From the NCBI GenBank assembly GCA_001313065.1, contig BBFD01000017.1, positions 1-26,813 on the forward strand: a DNA stretch of 26,813 nucleotides, given 5' to 3'. The position numbers and the translations under genes are program-made. The notes under the pieces are model-generated. The model did not search any database and was not told where the DNA came from. It worked only from the letters and a program-made list of their open reading frames with translations. This DNA comes from Silvimonas sp. JCM 19000. GTDB lineage: Bacteria > Pseudomonadota > Gammaproteobacteria > Burkholderiales > Chitinibacteraceae. Each line of letters opens with the position of its first letter. The stretch's first letter is position 1. Shown here one piece after another: positions 1 to 16,564 of this stretch.

Positions 1-2293
1 CCTGCAAACTGGCGATGCGTTGCTCCTGCGCGGCGTGCAGCGTCGTGGCCTGTGCGCGGTTGATGCATCTAAAACGCACGGTATTGCCGGGGCGCAGTTG
101 CCCTAACTTCCATAATTCAGCATCCACGACCACGGCGGGACAAACAAAGCCGCCCAGACTCGGCCCATCCGGACCAAGTATCACCGGCATATCGCCGGTA
201 AAGTCGATTGCGCCGATGGCATAGGCGTTGTCGTGGATATTGGACGGATGCAGCCCGGCCTCACCACCATCACGCCGCGCCCATTGCGGCTTGGGGCCGA
301 TCAACCGCACGCCGGTACGGCTGGAGTTGTAATGCACTTGCCATTCAGCGCTAAAGAAGGCGTCGATATCGGCATCGGTAAAGAAATCCGGTGCGCCGTG
401 CGGGCCGTACAACACGCCGATTTCCCAATCCGCTGGATAGAGCGGGATGGCGGTGTGCGCCAATTCGTTCGGCACGCAGTCTGCATCACTGCCCAGATGC
501 AGCACGTCCCCCACCCGCAAGGTGCGACCGCCATGACCGCCAAACTGACCGAGGGTAAAAGTGGATTTGCTACCCAGATAATCCGGCACATCCAGCCCGC
601 CACTCACGGCTAGATAGCTGCGGCAACCACCGCCTTCGATGGCGCCGATACGCAATACGCTACCGGCGGCGACGGGTATCGCGCGCCATAAGGCCAGCGC
701 TTCGCCATCCAGCGTGGCCTGCATGGCAGCCCCGGTCAGCGCGATCACGCTGGCGCGGTTAAAGCGCAAGCTTGGGCCGGTGATGGTGAGCTCCAGTGCG
801 GCGGCCCCCTCGGCATTCCCCACCAGACGATTGGCCAGCCGCAAAGCCTGACTATCCATCGGCCCGGAAGGCGGCACCCCCACGCCCCAATAACCCACCC
901 GGCCCGGCCAATCCTGGATGCTGGATTGCACACCGGCATCCAGCACATCGATGGTTGCAGGACGATAAACCAGAGCGGCAAGCGAGCGGGTAATCTGGCG
1001 GCCGCTGGCAAACACCTCATCCGCCAGTATTTGCCGCAGATATTCCAGATTGGTTTCAATGCCCGCCAGCGCCGTGCCCGCCAACGCATGCTGCATCCGC
1101 TGCAACGCGGCGGCCCGGTCCTCGCCCCAGGTCAGTACCTTGGCCAGCAGTGGATCGTAAAACGCGGGGACCTCGGTGCCGCTGCTGACCCAGCTATCCA
1201 CCGCGCTGCAGCCGGCAACTGCACATGGGTCAGCAAGCCCGCGGCAGGCTGAAACTGCTTGTTCGGGTCTTCGGCATAAACCCGCACCTGCATGGCGGCG
1301 CCGTGCGGCTGCCATTGCCAGGCGCTCAGATCCGGCCCTCGCCTGCGGCGGCCAGCAGCATCCATTCAACCAGATCAACCTCGTTCACCAACTCGGTTAC
1401 GCCGTGCTCGACCTGTAGCCGCGTGTTTACTTCCAGAAAATAAAACTGCTGGCTGCGCACGTCGTAGACAAACTCGACCGTGCCCGCGGATTGATAGCCA
1501 ACCGCTTGCACCAGGCGCACCGCCGTATCGCACAGTTGCTGGCGCTGTTCGGCGCTTAAATGCGGCGCCGGCGTTTCTTCAATCACTTTCTGGTTGCGGC
1601 GTTGCGTGGAGCAATCGCGTTCGCCCAGATGCACGATGCGGCCGTCCGAGGTGCCAAAAATCTGCACCTCGATATGGCGCGCGTCTTCGACAAATTTCTC
1701 CAGATAAATGCCGCCGTTCTTGAAGTTGTTTTGCGACAAGCGCTCCACGCTGGCCCATGCCTGCGTCAGCCCGTCGGCATCGCGGCACAACTGCATGCCG
1801 ATGCCGCCCCCGCCTGCCGTGCTTTTAAGCATGACCGGATAGCCGATGCCTTGCGCTTGCGCGCGCGCATCGGCCACATCCAGCAGCAAACCACTACCCG
1901 GCAATAGCGGCACATTGTTCAGCTGCGCCAGTTCGCGCGCGGTGTGCTTGAGGCCGAAGGCACGCATATGTTCCGGTTTGGGGCCGATAAACGTAATGCC
2001 CGCGTCCGCGCAGGCTGCGGCAAAGTCGGCGTTTTCGCTCAAGAAGCCGTAGCCCGGGTGGATGGCTTGCGCGCCGGTATCGCGCGCCGCTTGCAGTATG
2101 GCGTCAGCGCGCAGATAACTGAGTGCGGCCGCGGCCGGGCCAACGCAAACGGCTCATCGGCCAGCGCCACATGCGCGGCATGGCGGTCCGCCTCGGAATA
2201 CACCGCCACTGCGGCGATGCCCATGCGTTTAAGGGTTTTGATAATGCGGCAGGCAATTTCGCCGCGATTGGCGATCAGCACTTTGCTAAACAT
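1..2293 (-). CDS. Guanidine carboxylase (urea carboxylase family), N-terminal part, cut by window edge
   Basis: Biotin- and ATP-dependent carboxylase; about 760 residues of a protein family usually near 1,200 are visible. The start is [17 protein letters not shown], the classic biotin carboxylase N-terminus. An ATP-grasp domain follows with a GGGGIGMQ loop and the catalytic [14 protein letters not shown] segment. From about residue 470 comes the carboxyltransferase part ([16 protein letters not shown], then [12 protein letters not shown]). The rest of the carboxyltransferase and the biotinyl domain lie beyond the left edge. Proteins of this family are often labelled urea carboxylase. The guanidine-I riboswitch and two DUF1989 genes upstream argue for guanidine as substrate, giving carboxyguanidine. 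An allophanate hydrolase would be expected next, outside the window. The frame is broken near 2144, 1340 and 1207, each by one missing G or C. It is the last visible gene of the operon, 102 bases after its neighbour. Family is certain; guanidine specificity is inferred. Confidence 0.9.
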
Positions 2294-2302
2294 GGTTATG
2301 CA

Positions 2303-2349
2303 CCAGCGGGTCGTCCCGCACGATTGCAACGCCCAGCGGGCCGTCCCGC
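2303..2349. repeat. Pair of 17-base repeats, each a small stem-loop
   Basis: Two copies of a 17-base unit (2303-2319 and 2333-2349) differ at one position and start 30 bases apart. Each holds a perfect five-base stem, GCGGG/CCCGC, around a four-base loop (TCGT or CCGT). They fill much of the 102-base gap between the DUF1989 gene and the carboxylase gene. They might act as an mRNA processing or stability element inside the operon. No family is recognised. Confidence 0.5.
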
Positions 2350-2395
2350 GTGGGTGGAATACTTGGGCCAGCGGCGCGATCAGGCCGCGCCCGCC

Positions 2396-3049
2396 TCAAT
2401 CCCAGATCAACAGCCGCACCGGCGTCGGGTTCCAGCCATTGCAGGGGTTGTTTAATTGCGGGCAGTTGGAGATCAGCACCCACACGTCCATCTCGGCGCG
2501 CATCTCCACATATTTGCCGGGGCCGGACACGCCATCGTCAAACTTCAGATCGCCCGTGTCCGTTACCGGCACATTCATAAAGAAATTCACATTGGGCACC
2601 AGATCGCGTTTGCTGATGCCGACGTCGGCGTGCTGGATGGCCAGCAGATAATTGTCGCGACACGAATGCATATATTTCTTTTGCAAGGCGTAGCGCACGG
2701 TATTGCTCTCGGCCGCGCAGGCGCCGCCCAGGGTGTCATGGCGGCCACAGGTATCGGCCACGATGGTGAGCATCGCGTTGCCATCGTTGCTGACCAGCAC
2801 GCTATCGGTGGTCAGATAAATGCCGCCTTGCTGCAACATGGTTTGCGTGGCGCTGTAGTGCTCGCCGATATCGTGCTGGTTATAGAAGATGACATCGGCC
2901 GCCTGATTGCCTTGCAGATCTTCGATGCGCAGGGTCTGGCCCTGTTTGACGGCGTGCAGCCACGGCTCGCCCGCAGGTTGATAGCGGTCGAGTACGGCGT
3001 GCGCGGGATTAAGCGCGCTGGTTTTGAGGCGGATGGCCGTTGCGGTCAT
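2396..3049 (-). CDS. DUF1989 urea carboxylase-associated protein, probable carboxyguanidine deiminase subunit (Cys-containing)
   Basis: An intact 217-residue protein of the DUF1989 family, matching the smaller of the two 'urea carboxylase-associated' proteins. In guanidine-degrading bacteria the pair forms carboxyguanidine deiminase (CgdAB), which converts carboxyguanidine into allophanate and ammonia. The likely metal-site residues are visible: C101, H104 and C111 (TCGRHDTLGGAC) and C130 (MHSCRDN). The start is the ATG at 3049, ten bases after the stop of the larger partner, which suggests coupled translation. No signal peptide, so cytoplasmic. The metal role of the cysteines is inferred from the family. 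I cannot say which of the two genes is cgdA or cgdB. This is one of the few genes here without a frameshift. Confidence 0.88.
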   Translation of the reverse strand: MTATAIRLKTSALNPAHAVLDRYQPAGEPWLHAVKQGQTLRIEDLQGNQAADVIFYNQHDIGEHYSATQTMLQQGGIYLTTDSVLVSNDGNAMLTIVADTCGRHDTLGGACAAESNTVRYALQKKYMHSCRDNYLLAIQHADVGISKRDLVPNVNFFMNVPVTDTGDLKFDDGVSGPGKYVEMRAEMDVWVLISNCPQLNNPCNGWNPTPVRLLIWD

Positions 3050-3059
3050 GACGATTTCC

Positions 3060-3866
3060 TCACATCAAATACAGTTGGTCGGCGTTATGGATGGCACGCG
3101 CGTTCTCGGGGCGGAATTGGCGGCAGTAGTCATCAGCCGCTGCGGTCCCGGAACGCCAGGCGGCCAGGCCGATCTTGCCCGGCGCGTAGTCGGAGCGCGG
3201 GTCCAGCGGATGCGGCGCGCTGCTATAGGCAATCAGCGTGTCCATATCAAAGCGCAACTCGACGTAATCACCGGGTTGAGCGTGGTCAGGTACAAAGGCA
3301 AAGCGGCCTTCGTCATCCACCGTGATCTTGCTGAACAGATTGACCGGCGCGGTCAGATCGCGTTTGCCCAGGCCGTATTTGCCGATCTCGATCAGCAAGC
3401 CATCGCGGCCATTGCGGTACATGGCGTTGCGCGCCGTCTCAAAATTGCGCTCGCCGTATTTGCGCGCCAGCGTCGGCGCATCCAGCAGCGCACCCAGCGG
3501 ATCGTGCCAACCCAGGGTATCGGCGGTGAATGACGCCAGCGAGCGACCCATATCGCTCATCAAGACATGGCCGCGCGTGTAATGCGCGGTGTGCTGCGCT
3601 TTCAGGCTGTCGGGCATGCTGTAGCGCTCCAGTTTTTCACGCGCGGAAAACAGCATCAGCGATAAATTGACGCCCGCATCCAGCGCCACCAGACGCAGCG
3701 TGCTGCCGCGCGGCATCAGCGCGGACCAATGCGCGCCGCCGGGCAGGATGTCGGACCAGAGGATGCGGTCGGCGGCCAGATCCGGCGCAAAGCGTTTCCA
3801 GAATTCGGGCGTATCCACTGGCGCGTGTGCAGGTGGATTGTCGAGGCTTGCGGCAAAGTCGGTCAT
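3060..3866 (-). CDS. DUF1989 urea carboxylase-associated protein, larger subunit lacking the cysteines
   Basis: An intact 268-residue DUF1989 protein, the larger of the two associated with urea/guanidine carboxylases and the probable partner of the 217-residue protein just downstream. The segment that holds C-x2-H-x6-C in the partner reads TLGWHDPLGALLDA here (about residues 117-130), and the third cysteine region reads YRNGRDG (150-156). The three putative metal-binding cysteines are therefore all absent while the surrounding HDPLG framework remains. This fits an unequal heterodimer in which this subunit shapes or stabilises the complex. The start ATG at 3866 is preceded by GAAGGAG, which overlaps the end of the ATPase gene region, so the genes are co-transcribed. 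Function is from family and context. Confidence 0.87.
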   Translation of the reverse strand: MTDFAASLDNPPAHAPVDTPEFWKRFAPDLAADRILWSDILPGGAHWSALMPRGSTLRLVALDAGVNLSLMLFSAREKLERYSMPDSLKAQHTAHYTRGHVLMSDMGRSLASFTADTLGWHDPLGALLDAPTLARKYGERNFETARNAMYRNGRDGLLIEIGKYGLGKRDLTAPVNLFSKITVDDEGRFAFVPDHAQPGDYVELRFDMDTLIAYSSAPHPLDPRSDYAPGKIGLAAWRSGTAAADDYCRQFRPENARAIHNADQLYLM

Positions 3867-3880
3867 GGGAATGGCTCCTT

Positions 3881-4726
3881 CTAATCGTGCAACGCGGCCA
3901 GACCGGACAGCTTCTGCAGCTGTTCCAGATCGGTTTTCATGCCTGCGGTGTCACGGATGCGGTTGAGGATTTCGCGCTTGAGGCCGGTAAATTCCGGCGC
4001 CAGTTTCATGTCCTGATCGCGCGCGGCGGCAGCGGCACCGGGTAGATGGTGTCGATGCGGCCAGGGCGTGGCGCCATCAGCACCACGCGGTCGCCCAGAT
4101 AAATGGCTTCTTCAACATCGTGAGTAACAAAAAAAACGATGGTGACTTGCTCCAGCCGCCGCACGTGGCAGATCAGGTCGTGCATCACTTCACGCGTTTG
4201 CGCATCGAGCGCGCCAAACGGCTCATCCATCAGCAATACGCGCGGCTTGCTCATCAAGGCCCGGGCGATGGCCACACGCTGCTGCATGCCGCCCGACAAT
4301 TGCGCCGGATATTTATGCGCGGCGGCGGTCAGGCCCATCAGGCTGAGCAAGGCATCGGCGCGACCACTGGCGCGTTCCACATCGACCGAAGTACGGTCTT
4401 GCTGGTTGACGGCCAGCTGGCGACTGAACTTGATGTTGTCCAGCACGGTAAGCCACGGTACAGGCTGTAATGCTGAAACACCATAGCCCGATCCGCGCCC
4501 GGGCCCGTCACCGGCGCGCCGTCGAGCAACACCTGGCCGCTGCTTTGCGTTTCCAGCCCGCCGATAATGCGCAACAACGTGGATTTGCCGCAGCCCGAAG
4601 CGCCGACAAAGGTGATGAATTCGTTGTCGGCCACGTCCAGGCTGGCGTGTTGCAACGCCTGCACGGCTTGCGCGCCGTGGCCGAATTGCTTGTTGACGTC
4701 GCGAATGGCGATTTTTTTGGGGTCAT
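3881..4726 (-). CDS. ABC transporter ATP-binding protein (nitrate/sulfonate/taurine type) of guanidine operon
   Basis: Cytoplasmic ATPase that powers the transporter encoded by the two genes before it. After frame correction it is about 281 residues and carries every ABC motif: Walker [11 protein letters not shown]-loop MVFQHYSLY, signature LSGGMQQR, Walker [13 protein letters not shown] and the H-loop VTHDVEEA. The start is the ATG at 4726 with AAGGAGCC just upstream, 15 bases after the permease stop. Frame breaks: the A7 run at 4712-4718 (native five), one missing C near 4455 (YSLYPW) and one missing base near 4040. Beyond the usual end, about 40 residues continue to the TAG at 3881. Closest in type to SsuB/TauB/NtrD proteins. 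The substrate (guanidine or a derivative) is inferred from the operon only. Confidence 0.9.
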
Positions 4727-4741
4727 CCTGGTGGCTCCTTG

Positions 4742-5581
4742 TTAGTGCCGTGCCAGCCACGGAAAGGCTTTGCGATGTAGCAGGCGGAACAGTTGATCGA
4801 TGACCAGACCCATCGCGCCGATCAGCAAAATGCCGGCGAAGATCTTGTCGGTCTGCAAAAAAAACGCTGCGCCTTGAGGATGGCAAAGCCGACGCCCGAA
4901 TTAGCAGCCACCAGTTCGGCCACCACCAGATAAGTCCAGGCCCAGCCCATGGTGATGCGCAGCGTATCCAGCAAGGCGGGTCGCGCCGACGGCACGATCA
5001 CCAGCTTGATGATCTCGCCGCGCGTGGCGCCCATGGTTTGCGCGGCTTCGATCTGCATGGCGGGTACGCGGCGTACGTCTTCCGCCACCATCAACACCAT
5101 CTGGAAAAAAAACGTGCCGATAAAGATGACGGCCACTTTGGCGCCTCATCGATGCCCACCCACAGCATGACCAAGGGCACAAAGGCCACCGCTGGCATGT
5201 AGCGGATAAAGTCGGTGAGCGGCTCCAGCAAGGCCTGCACCGGGCGGAAGGTGCCGATCAACAAACCCAGCGGCAAAGCCACCACCACCGACAAGGCCCA
5301 GCCGGCAATGACGCGATAGCCGCTGATGGCCATATCGCCGCCCAGGTTGTCTTCGCTCCACCATTGCACCAGCCGTTGCAGCACCGTATACGGGCCCGGC
5401 AAAAAAACACCGGTGACACCAGCTGGCTGGCCGACAGCGCCCACCAGATCAACAAAGGCAACAGCAAGCCCGCCAACGCAATCGCCAGATAAGCGCGCGT
5501 CGACAGTTCGCCACGGATGGCCCAGACACTGCGCCGCGGTGGCGCGCTGCTGACGGGCACGATAAGTTCAGGTGCGGACAT
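4742..5581 (-). CDS. ABC transporter permease (SsuC/TauC type) of guanidine operon
   Basis: Inner-membrane permease, about 279 residues after correction. It starts MSAPELIVPVSS, with a first membrane helix around residues 28-50. It has the conserved ABC permease loop (EAAQTMGATRGEIIKLVIVP) that contacts the ATPase, and ends HRKAFPWLARH. Frames join across the A7 run at 5401-5407 (VFLPGP restored), a missing G near 5145 (EAPKVAVIF restored) and the A8 run at 4857-4864 (RFLQTDK restored). The A8 run at 5105-5112 is in frame and gives GTFFFQM, which may contain an extra Phe. The gene starts 53 bases after the binding-protein stop with GGAG before the ATG. Confidence 0.88.
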
Positions 5582-5634
5582 GCGATTCTCCGGCGGGGTT
5601 GGCGGACGGGTCGGGCTGGATGGATTGGACCGAC

Positions 5635-6639
5635 TTATTTGCTTGCGTCCTGGATCAGCGAACCATCCAGACCCTTGGCCACATCGGGCTTGCCTTCGAC
5701 CAGCTTGTTATCCAGCAAGAAGCGATTGATGGTCGGCGCAACAGCGCTGAGCGAGGTCGCGCTTTTCGGGTTGAAGGCGTCCGCATTGTCCTTGGCATTA
5801 AAGAATCGCGTGCCCGGCAAGAATGCTTTGTATTCATCCGGTTTAAGGCTGACCACCTTGCTCATGATTTTGGCGGCGTCATCCGGATGGGTGGCGATAA
5901 AGGCTTGCGCGTCGTACCAGCTTGATCATACCGACAGATCTTTGCGCTTGGTCTGGATGGCTTTGTCTTGCGCCACCAGCAAATCGGGGATCAAGCCGGG
6001 CATATCGCGCGAGGTGAACAGCGCATGGCCTTTGCCGGAAGTCTGGATGGTGTTGACCCACGGATTCCACACCACGGCGGCATCGACCCGACCGGCCATA
6101 AAGGCGGCGGCGGCGTCACCGGCGGCCAGATTGGTCACCTTGACGTCTTTCAGCGTCATGCCGTGTTTTTTTTCCAGCGCGTTGACCAGCACGAAATGCG
6201 AAATGCTGTATTGCTCCAAGGCGATGGTTTTGCCTTTGAGGTCGGCAAAGTTCTTGATTTTGGGGCCCACCATCAGGCGTCGTTGCCGGCCGAGTTGTCA
6301 TTGACCAGCACCGCCTTGACCGGCACGCCCTTGGCCAGGGGCGCCATGGTGTCGGACCAGGTTTGCGAATTGGCATCCAGTTGCCCGCTGCTCAGTGCAG
6401 CGATCGAATCGGTGTAATTGGCAAACCACACCAGCTTGACGTCAGCACCGTACTTTTTTGAAATAGCCATTCTGATCGGCCACATACCAGGCCACCCAAC
6501 CCGGCCAGTCCGACACGCCTACTTTGACTTCAGCACGCGCCAGCGGCGACCACGCGGACAAAGCAGTCAGCGCCACAGCGGTGACAAGGGCAGCACTACG
6601 ACGACAGAACAGCGATGCAGCAGATGAACGAACAGACAT
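5635..6639 (-). CDS. ABC transporter periplasmic substrate-binding protein (SsuA/TauA-like), first gene of guanidine operon
   Basis: Exported solute-binding protein, about 334 residues. A Sec signal peptide is clear: basic N-terminus with RR, a hydrophobic stretch, then cleavage after ARA before EVKVGVSDWPG. The mature start and the later GRVDAAVVWNPW segment are typical of the nitrate/sulfonate/taurine-binding fold. Frames join across the T6 run at 6464-6469 (GYFKKYG restored) and a missing C near 6280 (NDALMVGPK restored). An in-frame TGA at 5926-5928 sits in a locally garbled stretch. The frame on both sides is the same and the likely reading is SGMIKSWYDAQ, so compensating small losses are more likely than a true stop. 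AGGAG precedes the ATG. It lies directly downstream of the riboswitch. The ligand is probably guanidine or a related compound; this is inference. Confidence 0.87.
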
Positions 6640-6681
6640 GGCATTGCTCCTGAGGGTGGGAATCCGGGCACGAGAGGCGGG

Positions 6682-6713
6682 CAGCCCTTGTACTGCATTG
6701 CAGTAACAAGCTG
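6682..6713 (-). promoter_or_regulatory. Long hairpin between riboswitch aptamer and first gene (expression platform candidate)
   Basis: Read on the minus strand, the bases just after the riboswitch core form a nearly continuous stem. CAGC pairs with GCTG, TTGT with ACAA, and TACTGCA with TGCAGTA around a single A. No run of T follows it, so it does not look like a simple intrinsic terminator. It may be part of the riboswitch switching region or hide downstream signals before the AGGAG of the binding-protein gene. Confidence 0.5.
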
Positions 6714-6714
6714 T

Positions 6715-6832
6715 CGCGACCTCCCGGGCTTTTGTCCCGCCGTGGAGCTGCCAATGGATGGCGGCCGGAACGCTCTCGGACCAGACATTGCATGCGCGTC
6801 AGTGACGGATGCAACCGGAACCCTAGCTTTCC
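6715..6832 (-). promoter_or_regulatory. Guanidine-I (ykkC) riboswitch aptamer
   Basis: Three signature blocks of the ykkC/guanidine-I aptamer are present in order on the minus strand: GCTAGGGTTCCGG (6815-6827), CTGGTCCGAGAG (6773-6784), and the ACGGCGGGACAAAAGCCCGGGAG block at 6721-6743, with key elements GGGACAAAA and GCCCGGGAG. This RNA class binds free guanidinium and usually turns on guanidine export or breakdown genes. It lies in the leader of the binding-protein gene, between a sigma-54 promoter and the start codon, and so explains the role of the whole operon. Outer boundaries are approximate. Recognition is by conserved sequence and has not been checked by covariance search. Confidence 0.93.
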
Positions 6833-6878
6833 TGAAAGACGATGCGACACAGGCCGCACCCCTCGTGCTGTCTACTAG

Positions 6879-6894
6879 AGCAAAAGCAATGCCA
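6879..6894 (-). promoter_or_regulatory. Sigma-54 (RpoN) promoter of guanidine operon
   Basis: On the minus strand the 16 bases read TGGCATTGCTTTTGCT. They match the sigma-54 consensus TGGCAC-N5-TTGCW with exact spacing between the -24 GG and the -12 GC. Transcription would begin near 6866, about 40 bases before the riboswitch core. Sigma-54 control is common for nitrogen-scavenging operons and would make expression depend on nitrogen limitation through an activator such as NtrC. Confidence 0.72.
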
Positions 6895-7227
6895 GGCATG
6901 TATACAAGATGCGTATTACTTGATGTTTTTTTACTTCAGAGGCATGATTTGGAAAGGTTTTTTTTCTGCGTGTGTCAGCGGCTGTCAGACAATACCCCGA
7001 CGCCAGCCTCAATTAACCGCGCGTAACTCTGGTGCAAGATGCAGTTTTATGGGCCGCAATGGTGCAATGCACATAAACATATAATTAATAAGCAATATCT
7101 CGGGAGGAATTGAGGCGGAATGCGGCTTGCAGCGTCAGCGCGTTTAATTACCGGTGCAAGCGAGGATGACGTTCGTCGGATTCTGCCGTCAAAGTCGTGA
7201 AAAGCTTAATTTCGGCTTAAAAGGTAT
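6895..7227. other. Intergenic region between divergent guanidine operon and PEP-CTERM gene
   Basis: This AT-rich region separates two divergent promoters. It holds the two TGGTGCA sites and a T8 run near 6959-6966. It also holds a possible 26-codon reading frame at 7120-7200 on the plus strand, with GAGGCGG just before its ATG. I see no other gene or RNA signature. Confidence 0.5.
7030..7073. promoter_or_regulatory. Two TGGTGCA half-sites, candidate activator (NtrC-like) binding sites
   Basis: TGGTGCAAGATGCA (7030-7043) and TGGTGCAATGCACA (7060-7073) start 30 bases apart, close to three helical turns. The second contains the dyad GTGCA-A-TGCAC. TGGTGCA is the NtrC half-site, but the partner half is poor in both copies, so assignment to NtrC is weak. 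They lie about 140-190 bases upstream of the sigma-54 promoter, a normal enhancer distance. Confidence 0.35.
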
Positions 7228-10344: not shown

Positions 10345-11551
<1,207 letters not shown>

Positions 11552-13038: not shown

Positions 13039-13885
13039 TTATGCAACTTCCGCTTCCAGCCAGTCTTGCCACACTGGTACGCAACCGATGGGCAGATCGG
13101 GATTCAACCCGGGTTCGCGCGCGCCTTCGCCGGTAGCGTGGTAATCGGTACCCGACGAGGCCAGCAGTTCAAATTCTTGCGCCAGGCGCCCGAAACGGCC
13201 GATCTCGGCGGCGCCATGACATCCGGACACCACTTCGATGCCCTCGCCCCCCAGCCGACGAAACTCGGACAGCAATACGCGCATGGTTTCGTTACCCATC
13301 TCATAGCGGCCCGGATGCGCCAGCACCGCTTTGCCGCCCGCTGCGCGCACCCATTCGATGGCTTCGTGCAGGCGCGCCCATTCGTGTTCTACATAGCCGG
13401 GTTTGCCGCGCACCATAAAGCGCTTGAAGACCGTTTTGGTGTCTTTGCAGGCGCCAATTTCTACCAGATAACGCGCAAAGTGCGTGCGGCTGATCATCTC
13501 GGGGTTGTCGGCATATTTGCGCGCGCCTTCGATCATATTGTCGAGGCCCACTTTCGCCAACGAGGCGCTCATGCGCTCGGCCCGTTCAGTACGGCCTGCG
13601 CGCACGCTGGCCAGGCCTTGTTGCAAAACGTCGTTGTGACGATCCACATTCAGCCCGAGCATATGCAGCGTGTGCTTGCCCCAGCTAACCGAGATTTCGA
13701 CCCCGTTAATGAGCTTGAGCATGCAGTGTGGCCTCGGCATGCGCTTCGGTCAGGCCGCGCAAATCATCGTGGTCCGTCAGCGCAAACAGTTTGCAACCGC
13801 GCGCGGCCGCTTTGCGCACAACTTCGGCCGGCGGCAACAAGCCGTCGGAGACATTGGAATGGCAGTGCAGATCAACCGGTGTCAT
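13039..13885 (-). CDS. rnm: PHP-domain phosphoesterase, RNase AM / 3',5'-nucleotide phosphatase type
   Basis: A PHP-family metal-dependent phosphoesterase of about 282 residues, matching E. coli YciV/TrpH (RNase AM, which trims rRNA 5' ends). Metal-binding motifs run in order: DLHCHSNVSDG at the N-terminus, LTDHDD (about 38-43), GVEIS, AHPGRY and SGTDYH near the end. One frame break lies near 13717, where a base is missing between EATLHA and LKLINGVEIS. The ATG (13883-13885) overlaps the TGA of cysM in an ATGA, so the two are translationally coupled. A strong terminator follows. RNase AM is inferred from homology; other PHP phosphatases look similar. Confidence 0.88.
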
Positions 13886-14764
13886 GCAGGAAATACGCCT
13901 GTAGAAAGATAACGGTCGCCCCGATCCGCAATGATCGAGACGATAACGGCGTTTTCGACCTCGGCCGACAACTTGAGTGCCGCCGCCAGCGCGCCGCCCG
14001 ACGAGATGCCGGCAAAAAAATGCCTTCCTCGCGCGCCAGCCGCCGCGTGGTGTCTTCGGCTTCTTGCTGCGTCACTTCCATGACGCGATCAATCTTGTTC
14101 CAGTCGCAGATATCGGGCACGTATTCCTGCGGCCATTTGCGGATGCCTGGAATGGACGCACCGTCACAAGGTTGCACGCCGACGATCTGGATGGCGCTGT
14201 TCTTTTCTTTAAGAAAACGCTGCGTGCCCATGATGGTGCCGGTGGTGCCCATGCTGGAGACAAAATGGGTGATGCCGCCAGCGGTATCGCGCCAGATTTC
14301 CGGGCCGGTGCTTTGATAATGCGCGAGCGGATTATCGGGATTGGCAAACTGGTCCAGCATCAGGCCCTCACCCTGCGCGCTCATGGTCACGGCCAGATCA
14401 CGCGCGGCTTCCATGCCATCGGTGAGGATGACTTCGGCGCCAAACGCTTTCATGGTCTGCACCCGTTCAATGCTGGAATTTTTTTCGGCATGATCAGTAC
14501 CATGCGATAACCCATCATGGCGGCGGCCATAGCCAGCGCGATGCCGGTATTGCCCGAGGTGGCTTCAACCAGGGTATCGCCCGGCTTGATGTCGCCACGC
14601 GCTTCGGCCTGGCGGATCATCGACAAGGCCGGCCGGTCTTTGACCGAGCCTGCCGGATTGTTACCTTCGAGTTTGACCAGCACGATATTGCTGGTGTCGC
14701 CAGGCAAGCGCTTTAGCCGCACCAGCGGCGTATTGCCGACGAAATCTTCGATGTATTTATACAT
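13882..14764 (-). CDS. cysM: Cysteine synthase B (O-acetylserine sulfhydrylase)
   Basis: PLP-dependent enzyme making cysteine (or S-sulfocysteine from thiosulfate) from O-acetylserine. About 294 residues after correction. The start MYKYIEDFVGNTPLVRLKRL, the PLP lysine in NNPAGSVKDRPAL (about residue 41), the phosphate loop EATSGNTGIALA, GTTGTIMG and the SSGGAL segment are all present and point to CysM over CysK. Breaks are at the T7 run 14479-14485 (MPKNSSIERVQ restored) and the A7 run 14014-14020 (GIFAGISSGG restored). It ends GVFPA, and its TGA overlaps the PHP gene ATG. A TATAAT lies 22 bases before the start codon. Confidence 0.95.
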
Positions 14765-14785
14765 GGGCACTCCAATGGAGCCCCG

Positions 14786-14791
14786 ATTATA
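14786..14791 (-). promoter_or_regulatory. Candidate -10 element for cysM
   Basis: The minus strand reads TATAAT here, 22 bases before the cysM ATG. No good -35 hexamer lies at 16-18 bases, though TTGCGT is found closer. Only the -10 is convincing. Confidence 0.4.
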
Positions 14792-14880
14792 AGCCGGGAA
14801 TACGCAAGATCGTATCGCCATGCAGTGCCGTGCGCGCCAGCCAGCTAGCCCCGCAGCTGCGTGACGGCCCCGCTCGGGTC

Positions 14881-16564
14881 TCAGGCGGCAGCAACGATAA
14901 TCGGGCCCCACACCGCGAACAGCACGTTGGAGATGGCATAACACACGGTAAAGCCAATGACGGGCGTCTGGCTGCCGGATTGCTCGATAATGGCGTTCAT
15001 CGACGCGGCCTCGGTCTGGGCGCCAGCAAGTGCGCCTAGCAAGATCATCGGATGTAGCCGCAGTACCCATTTGCCAAAATAAAACGCAACCACCGGCGGC
15101 ACCAGCGTTACCACGACGCCAGCAATTACCAGAGAGATGCCATGCGCCTGAATGGCGACGATGGCTGGCGGCCCGGCCAGTAAACCGACCACGGCTGCAA
15201 AAGCGGTCAGACCGAACTCGGAAAACGCCCACTGGGCGGCCGGGGGCAAGGCGCCAAAGGCGGGATAGCGCGATTGCAACCAGCCCAGCACCAGCGCCAC
15301 CACCAGGATGCCGCCACCTATCCCCAACTCGATGGGTACGTCGCCAACCCGTGCCGACAGCGCGCCCAGCAGCGACCCCAATACAATCCCGAAAGCATGC
15401 AATGCGATATCGCTCTTGTGCCGGGCGGAACGGACCTTGCCCAGGCGCGCGGCCAAGGTATCGACGCAGTCCGGCCGACCCGACAGATGCGCAATATCGC
15501 CGGGCCGTAACACGGTCTTGTTAAGCAGCGGCAAGTCATAGCCTGGCGGGTAACGCGATCAAGAAATAGTCCGTGCCGCGACGACGGGCCAACCATAGCC
15601 CGGATTTGAGCGAGATTTTTGTGGGCAAATTCGCCGTGCCGCACCACGACTTCGACCGCGCGCGTCGGATAGGACATGGCCAATGGATGATCGATTTCTG
15701 GCCCCAGCAAGGCAGCGAGCTGCGCCGCGTACACGCGCTGGCAACCGATCCCGACAATATCCCCTTCCTGCAGCAGCAGATCCGGCTGGCGTTCATGCAC
15801 GGCGCCAGCACGCACCACGCGTTCAATGCTGATCCACGGCAAATCGTGCTCGACTGCGGCGATGGTTCTGGCAATGGCAGTACCCGCAGCGGTAAGGACG
15901 TGCGCGCGGGTCACGATGCGGGTGTAAGGCGTCATGACGTCGTCGTGCCCCCCCTCGCCTTCAGCGAGTTTGGCTTCCAGCTCCCGGGCCGATTGCTTGA
16001 GATCCACGCCGAGCAACAGCGGCGCGATGGCGCTGACAAACAGAATCAGGCCTATCGTGCCGAATAGATAGGTAATGGCGTAGGCCACTGCCATATGGCT
16101 GTTGAGCTGACTCAGTTGTGCGCTGGTGATGGGTAAACCGTTCAGCGCGCTGGCAGCCGTACCCATCATCGCGGTATCGGTGAGCGCGCCCGCCCCCAGC
16201 CCAGCCGCAAAACCGGCATCAAAACCAAACCAATGGTTCATCAACAGTATGGTCAGCAAGCCCGTTACACAGAGCACAACCGAAAACACCACCAGTTTCA
16301 GCGTGCCGCGATTGAGGCTACCGAAGAATTCCGGGCCGCTTTTAAAGCCCACGGAATAGATGAAGAGTGCAAAGAAAACCGCCTTCAGCAAGGCAGGTAC
16401 GGCAATGCCGATCTGCCCGATCAGCAACCCCATCAGCAAAGAACCTGCTACCGACCCGAGATGAAACTTGCCCCATCGCACATTACCTAGCCAGGTTCCA
16501 GCGCAATCGCCAGAAAGATGCCCAGCTCGGGGTTGGCGCGAAACGTATGCAGGACAAAATCCAT
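14881..16564 (-). CDS. AspT/YidE-type transporter with TrkA-C domains
   Basis: An inner-membrane carrier of about 561 residues with the duplicated layout of the aspartate:alanine exchanger family. It has an N-terminal membrane half (MDFVLHTFRANPELGIFLAI, later GLGAGALTDTAMMGTAASAL), then two soluble TrkA-C-like segments (ISIERVVRAGAVHE, LQEGDIVGIG; then LRPGDIAHLSG). The C-terminal membrane half contains GALAGAQTEAASMNAI. The paired GA(L)xD/QT motifs sit at equivalent sites in both halves. The substrate cannot be told from sequence; an organic acid or amino acid is likely. Breaks: one missing G near 16495 (LGTWLGNVRWGK restored) and one near 15546 (TRQGYDLPLLNK restored). It is monocistronic, with no close partner. 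Confidence 0.87.

Follow-up and report, generated by a model that had tools for sequence, protein, structure and literature searches.

Putative guanidine-assimilation operon of Silvimonas sp. with a guanidine-I aptamer behind a predicted NtrC/sigma-54 promoter

The stretch analysed here, 26,813 nucleotides (nt) of Silvimonas sp. JCM 19000 (contig BBFD01000017.1; hereafter the window), carries on its minus strand genes for a transporter, two DUF1989 proteins and a carboxylase, preceded by a guanidine-I riboswitch aptamer. The guanidine carboxylase pathway and the guanidine-I riboswitch are established, and the operon is a member of this known system. The added result is the series of promoter and riboswitch: very likely, the operon serves guanidine assimilation and receives two inputs one after the other, from an NtrC-activated sigma-54 promoter and then from the aptamer. 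As a sequence pattern, this apparent series is strong. We further consider it probable that, as a rule, guanidine-I riboswitches of proteobacterial assimilation operons lie directly behind NtrC-activated sigma-54 promoters, combining nitrogen starvation AND guanidine on one leader RNA, and that the promoter input is missing in bacteria lacking sigma-54 (cyanobacteria) and in ammonia oxidizers, which use ammonia as an energy source and keep rpoN. Named records with the pattern come from alpha-, beta- and gammaproteobacteria and from Acidithiobacillus.

RF00442 (Guanidine-I) is the sole Rfam match in the window at the gathering threshold in a covariance search, and covers the full model (1-107; E-value 5.8e-13). 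An earlier note, made from the DNA letters, had placed a guanidine-I riboswitch ahead of a guanidine operon at positions 1..6832. The significant covariance match (79.8 bits against a threshold of 63) bears out the riboswitch, and the operon stands; the end of the range was too short, as the aptamer begins at 6837 and the promoter match, which had gone unnoticed there, extends to 6894.

Promoter matches upstream of guanidine-I aptamers

The sigma-54 match, TGGCATTGCTTTTGCT, is located 52 nt ahead of the CTAGGG block of the aptamer and agrees with the consensus throughout (Table 1), and transcription is predicted to start near 6868. A promoter scan of positions 6560-7200 revealed no sigma-70-like site, with 0.4 expected by chance. 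The match recurs in related leaders. Counting the window, 149 distinct aptamers were compared: at least 10 of the 11 consensus letters are present within 150 nt in 112 of them, whereas this level is reached by 153 of 16,591 control stretches (0.9%), likewise 150 nt long and taken from both strands of the same sequences. None of the thiamine pyrophosphate (TPP) riboswitches from the same genomes has a sigma-54 match (0/28; 28 of 30 loci were used, two being too short). A motif-free scan of 147 upstream regions yielded GGCA-N6-TTGC, which is the sigma-54 core, as the top gapped word, present in 76 regions; in shuffled sequences its mean count was 0, and the most frequent word of one shuffled set reached 6. 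Distances between match and aptamer form two groups, 15-26 and 40-84 nt, so that the start of transcription would be either right at the aptamer or a few tens of nt ahead of it.

The 149 aptamers were obtained by merging identical copies among 199 instances, the sources of which were 80 relatives, most of their genomes (42 of 50 and 14 of 28 positive), two plasmid records and further fetched copies. Three even draws of genomes were included, centred at order level on a Variovorax genome (aptamer in 18 of 150) and at class level on a Methylomonas genome (29 of 369) and on an Azospirillum genome (27 of 337, 23 of them above the cut-off); the two class draws are taken to represent gamma- and alphaproteobacteria on the basis of the named central locus. 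When ammonia oxidizers and short upstream stretches are set aside, matches are found in 19/19, 28/33 and 18/25 aptamers of the even draws. Loci in genome searches came from the best 30 matches only, and in fetched loci the aptamers were located by pattern matching rather than individually by Infernal. Nine loci with no match to the aptamer pattern were dropped (L095, L114, L128, L137, L152, L192, L193, L194 and L207), and one sub-threshold place (G174:C565) was left out. The aptamer of L047, whose genome falls outside the genome searches, was taken from its locus. Scoring used the standard sigma-54 and NtrC consensus sequences and guanidine-I block patterns. Shuffles for the gapped-word and dyad scans permute two-base blocks, and no P values are given, as related sequences would count as independent.

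Upstream of the 112 matches, a dyad scan (4-letter halves, gaps of 3-13, up to 250 nt upstream, dyads in at least 12 sequences) revealed GCAC-N7-GTGC in 31 sequences (0.8 expected) as the top dyad and CACC-N5-GGTG in 16 (0.2 expected) as the second. Taken together, the two dyads make up the NtrC consensus. The consensus TGCACC-N5-GGTGCA is matched at 9/10 or better in 51 of 111 upstream regions, compared with 4.0% of 2,733 control windows, and 40 of these 51 sites are 63-130 nt upstream of the -24 element. In groups lacking the promoter match, NtrC-like sites were found in 3 of 14 exceptional aptamers (discussed below), in 0/10 ammonia oxidizers and in 0/10 cyanobacteria.

Two groups of aptamers uniformly lack the match. 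It is found in 0/10 cyanobacterial aptamers, and rpoN was not found in any of the five cyanobacterial genomes tested. The match is likewise found in 0/11 aptamers of the ammonia-oxidizer type, yet rpoN is present in all nine genomes tested. The next gene after ten of these 11 aptamers belongs to one cluster, the scanned representative of which is an amino-acid-permease-type (APC) transporter. Gene type and lifestyle are confounded in this group. Eight of its members come from Nitrosomonas or Nitrosospira records; L119 and L126 were assigned by their APC-cluster first gene, and L130 by sharing a genome with L119. In total, 80 of the 116 genomes with an aptamer were searched for rpoN, which was found in 74 of the 80.

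Leaders carrying a guanidine-II aptamer served as a further control (25 loci; exporter status was read from the first gene, and L290 is under the family cut-off). Exporter-like (Gdx/SMR) leaders, which likewise contain a guanidine-sensing RNA and come from the same class draw of genomes, have no match of at least 10 letters within 200 nt (0/6), although one (L292) has a 9. These genes mediate export, in contrast to the assimilation expected of the window operon. Among the non-exporter leaders, 17 of 19 were scored (L270 and L281 being too short): three reach at least 10 (L279, L291 and L293) and three reach 9 (L272, L284 and L289). In L279 and L291, the next gene encodes a membrane-protein-like product of about 330 residues.

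Operon, substrate and leader

The genes named in the earlier note (transporter, both DUF1989 genes and carboxylase) were all recovered by profile matches on the same strand as the riboswitch (Table 1). Both DUF1989 genes are complete and, at curated cut-offs, form a pair of UAAP1 and UAAP2 type, the arrangement expected of a carboxyguanidine deiminase (CgdA/CgdB). Leaving aside the window's own protein, the closest named relatives of the first DUF1989 gene product are Silvimonas proteins (78-79% identity). Against TIGR02712, two pieces of the carboxylase score 453 and 643 bits; the cut-off (1303.85) was set for the whole protein and is out of reach for pieces. An allophanate hydrolase gene is expected just outside the window by analogy with relatives. 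In the operon of a Cupriavidus basilensis plasmid, the gene order is as in the window and the hydrolase gene comes next. Among the 80 relatives, 57 have this gene at most 250 nt behind the carboxylase gene on the same strand and 62 have a hydrolase match somewhere in the sequence retrieved; among the other 18, several sequences stop shortly behind the carboxylase gene.

Table 1 Features of the window discussed in the text
Feature	Position	Strand	Evidence
Sigma-54 -24/-12 promoter match TGGCATTGCTTTTGCT	6879..6894	-	11/11 consensus letters, GG and GC at right spacing
Possible NtrC site GCACC-N5-GGCCC	7051..7065	-	8/10 consensus letters; weak, a level seen in 34% of control windows of 400 nt
Further half-site GCACC	7035-7031	-	Near possible NtrC site
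Guanidine-I riboswitch aptamer	6719..6837	-	Covariance 79.8 bits, full model
CCTCTCGTG, possible competing strand of expression platform	6669..6677	-	Partly complementary to CCCGGGAGG of the aptamer (6728-6720)
ATP-binding cassette (ABC) transporter substrate-binding protein gene, frame interrupted	5635..6639	-	Pieces match SsuA_fam/TIGR03427, NMT1
ABC transporter permease gene, frame interrupted	4742..5581	-	Pieces match TauC/SsuC/SaoP-type permeases
ABC transporter ATPase gene, frame interrupted	3881..4726	-	Pieces match nitrate/taurine/sulfonate-type ATPases
DUF1989 gene, UAAP1 type (predicted carboxyguanidine deiminase subunit)	3060..3866	-	TIGR03425 319.2 against cut-off 205.95; PF09347
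DUF1989 gene, UAAP2 type (predicted carboxyguanidine deiminase subunit)	2396..3049	-	TIGR03424 341.9 against cut-off 284.7; PF09347
Guanidine-type carboxylase gene, frame interrupted, cut by window end	1..2293	-	At 205-203, Asp codon facing K. lactis position 1330

The published rule for guanidine carboxylases is Asp at K. lactis positions 1330 and 1584 (PMC11410670). The first of these distinguishes them from urea carboxylases, which carry Asn at this site (PMC12186494, in a statement that gives no position). Position 1584 falls beyond the end of the window. In an alignment to chain 5i8i, GAIDFTG of the window faces GAINFTG of the yeast enzyme, so that Asp is aligned with K. lactis Asn1330 (the position was counted by hand along the alignment lines). 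The residue check proposed in the earlier note thus points to an enzyme of the guanidine type rather than the urea-specific type. The C. basilensis relative has Asp at both positions. Asp1330 is found in 80/80 relatives, which is unsurprising, and gives no estimate of the frequency of the guanidine type, as the relatives were found with the window protein, itself of the Asp1330 type; Asp1584 is found in 79/80, and the alignment does not reach this position in the remaining one. As in the earlier note, we infer that the window copy uses guanidine, and the activities of the operon products are predicted.

Downstream of the aptamer, the strand CCTCTCGTG may act as part of an expression platform; it was picked out by eye and compared with the terminator hairpins of relatives. 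Terminator-like hairpins occur in 65 of 149 leaders, within a stretch from 45 nt upstream to 150 nt downstream of the point where the aptamer core ends, and in 37 of 149 the 5' arm starts within the conserved GCCCGGGA block and T residues follow the hairpin (a manual count of the listing); neither count has a shuffled control. The use of the GCCCGGGA block as a 5' arm fits antitermination by guanidine. The fold of the 239-nt window leader (z-score -1.16) says little. The window aptamer would be expected to respond to its ligand and to act on the downstream RNA, and transcriptional, Rho-linked or translational control may all be compatible with its leader.

A plausible course of events can be proposed. 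Under nitrogen limitation, sigma-54 RNA polymerase activated by NtrC would start transcription about 12 nt past the -12 element, and the leader would fold into the guanidine-I aptamer. Bound guanidine would keep the conserved GCCCGGGAG strand in the aptamer, allowing the transcript to be completed or translated. The ABC transporter would then import guanidine, the carboxylase would carboxylate it with ATP, the two DUF1989 subunits would deiminate carboxyguanidine to allophanate, and the hydrolase, expected just outside the window, would split allophanate. The arrangement would work as an AND gate, in which nitrogen starvation starts transcription and guanidine lets the transcript pass.

Competing explanations

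Several observations weigh against an operon governed by two inputs in series. The NtrC site of the window itself is weak, as 8/10 is a level reached by 34% of controls; the case for NtrC control of the window copy hence draws on relatives, its own site being no better than a third of controls, and it is by analogy with them that NtrC would act here. An intrinsic terminator was not found in the window leader, and no T run follows the strand at 6677-6669. The transporter and carboxylase genes contain several frame changes. Among the 126 remaining aptamers with at least 100 nt upstream, 14 lack the match by the rule applied (the 37 match-less aptamers include two with less than 100 nt upstream). 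Loss of sigma-54 does not explain these 14, as rpoN is present in all 12 of their genomes tested. Three are near misses, with a 9/11 match 70-76 nt away (L026, L156 and L197); in L149 a match lies 157 nt away, and L177 and L179 carry TTGGCACGCTTCTTGA, with GA in the -12 part. Eight of the 14 are without explanation. Moreover, one genome (G505) has two matches but no rpoN match.

In three leaders with no sigma-54 match (L176, L181 and L185), a different sequence is shared just before the aptamer, CTTTGCTGTAATTG and then ATACAGAGTTTGG, which is perhaps a different promoter.

The 14 exceptions also feed the most serious rival explanation, namely that the riboswitch alone controls the guanidine operon from a sigma-70 promoter, the sigma-54 match being fortuitous or unused. 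Ammonia oxidizers and cyanobacteria manage without the match. Nevertheless, this explanation is unlikely given the excess of matches over background (112/149 against 0.9%), the recovery of the motif without prior, the NtrC-type dyads upstream and the failure to find a sigma-70-like site at 6560-7200. It is also at odds with the ntrC dependence published for Burkholderia cenocepacia (PMC5491218). The frame changes could instead be signs of a decaying, non-functional copy. Both DUF1989 genes are whole, however, and the aptamer and promoter match are intact. Furthermore, trpS is split into three pieces and cysM into two, in different frames (window 10348-11369 and 13875-15232). Across the whole window, 29 A/T runs of 7-8 bases were counted, compared with 7 runs of 5 and 12 of 6, a distribution that suggests systematic homopolymer miscalls. 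Given the split trpS and cysM genes and the odd homopolymer counts, the broken frames are not read as decay; they probably stem from sequence error, and a decayed copy is very improbable. Long A/T runs are found, for instance, at window positions 4129, 4857, 5105, 6166, 11372 and 16582.

Automatic annotation favours an operon for urea: the NCBIfam names TIGR02712, TIGR03424, TIGR03425 and TIGR03427 all refer to urea, yielding labels such as urea carboxylase, UAAP1/2 and putative urea ABC transporter. This reading can hardly be right, as a guanidine-I aptamer lies in front of the genes, position 1330 is occupied by Asp and not Asn, and a urea route has no known step for the two DUF1989 genes. 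The warning in the earlier note that names based on urea mislead agrees with both the aptamer and Asp1330, which side with guanidine.

Related systems and meaning of the two-input arrangement

Operons described in P. syringae DC3000, Raoultella terrigena, Klebsiella michiganensis and Vreelandella boliviensis (PMC11410670, PMC12186494, PMC12508155) resemble that of the window in having a guanidine-I aptamer, importer, deiminase and carboxylase, with a hydrolase expected. Some of them carry a guanidine-II aptamer before the carboxylase gene, whereas an Rfam search of the window found none at threshold. The passages of PMC11410670 and PMC12186494 found under RpoN, NtrC or promoter hold no statement on sigma-54 control. 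Genes of NtrC/sigma-54 regulons for alternative nitrogen sources share the -24/-12 match with the window, and NtrC dyads 63-130 nt upstream with its relatives; the window differs in having a metabolite-sensing riboswitch behind the promoter.

The DUF1989 family presumably corresponds to COG3665. In a 2025 survey of predicted sigma-54 regulons, 102 COG3665 genes are listed from alpha-, beta- and gammaproteobacteria, 59% of them called urea carboxylase (PMC12316311); sigma-54 control of such genes is thus partly in print. RNA sequencing of an ntrC mutant of B. cenocepacia H111 showed a “urea carboxylase” down by 6.0 log2 units and zero reads in the mutant for two carboxylase-related genes, one of them a transporter gene, a set that the authors ascribe to urea use (PMC5491218). 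Guanidine is not named in the passages found of PMC12316311 and PMC5491218, and the word riboswitch was shown once for PMC12316311, within its reference list. A different strain of B. cenocepacia has a head-to-head pair of guanidine-I aptamers, each with a sigma-54 match, of which one precedes a transporter-type gene and the other DUF1989-type genes and an Asp1330 carboxylase gene; these aptamer-led genes would correspond to the ntrC-dependent genes of H111. No publication linking a guanidine riboswitch with sigma-54 or NtrC was found among the matches listed, and such a link could still be in print.

Other guanidine-I loci show variations in gene content. L173 and L178 feature an aptamer and a sigma-54 match before a gene that, by reading, encodes a putative TonB-dependent receptor; if so, this would suggest active outer-membrane uptake of guanidine. 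A porin-like gene, also by reading, lies behind the aptamer of L238, and a gene annotated as a TorF-family porin (L112 1682-2662) adjoins the C. basilensis operon. In L157, L161, L232 and L233, aptamer and sigma-54 match precede genes belonging to a single cluster, the scanned representative of which is of the arginase family; these genes are possibly guanidinases, in which case the gate would serve another guanidine pathway too. Head-to-head aptamer pairs, on opposite strands and a few hundred bases apart, were also observed (L111 9800-10488, L119/L130, L154/L233, L157/L235 and L161/L236), and upstream activator sites may be common to the two divergent guanidine transcripts of a pair.

If the two-input arrangement is correct, a riboswitch usually treated as guanidine-only control would be half of a two-signal gate, and the presence of urea-named operons inside NtrC and sigma-54 regulons would be explained. 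Guanidine alone would be predicted not to induce the operon when ammonium is plentiful. Since a starvation promoter accompanies the assimilation genes and was seen in 0/6 exporter leaders examined, the arrangement would also favour a role of free guanidine as a nitrogen source for these bacteria.

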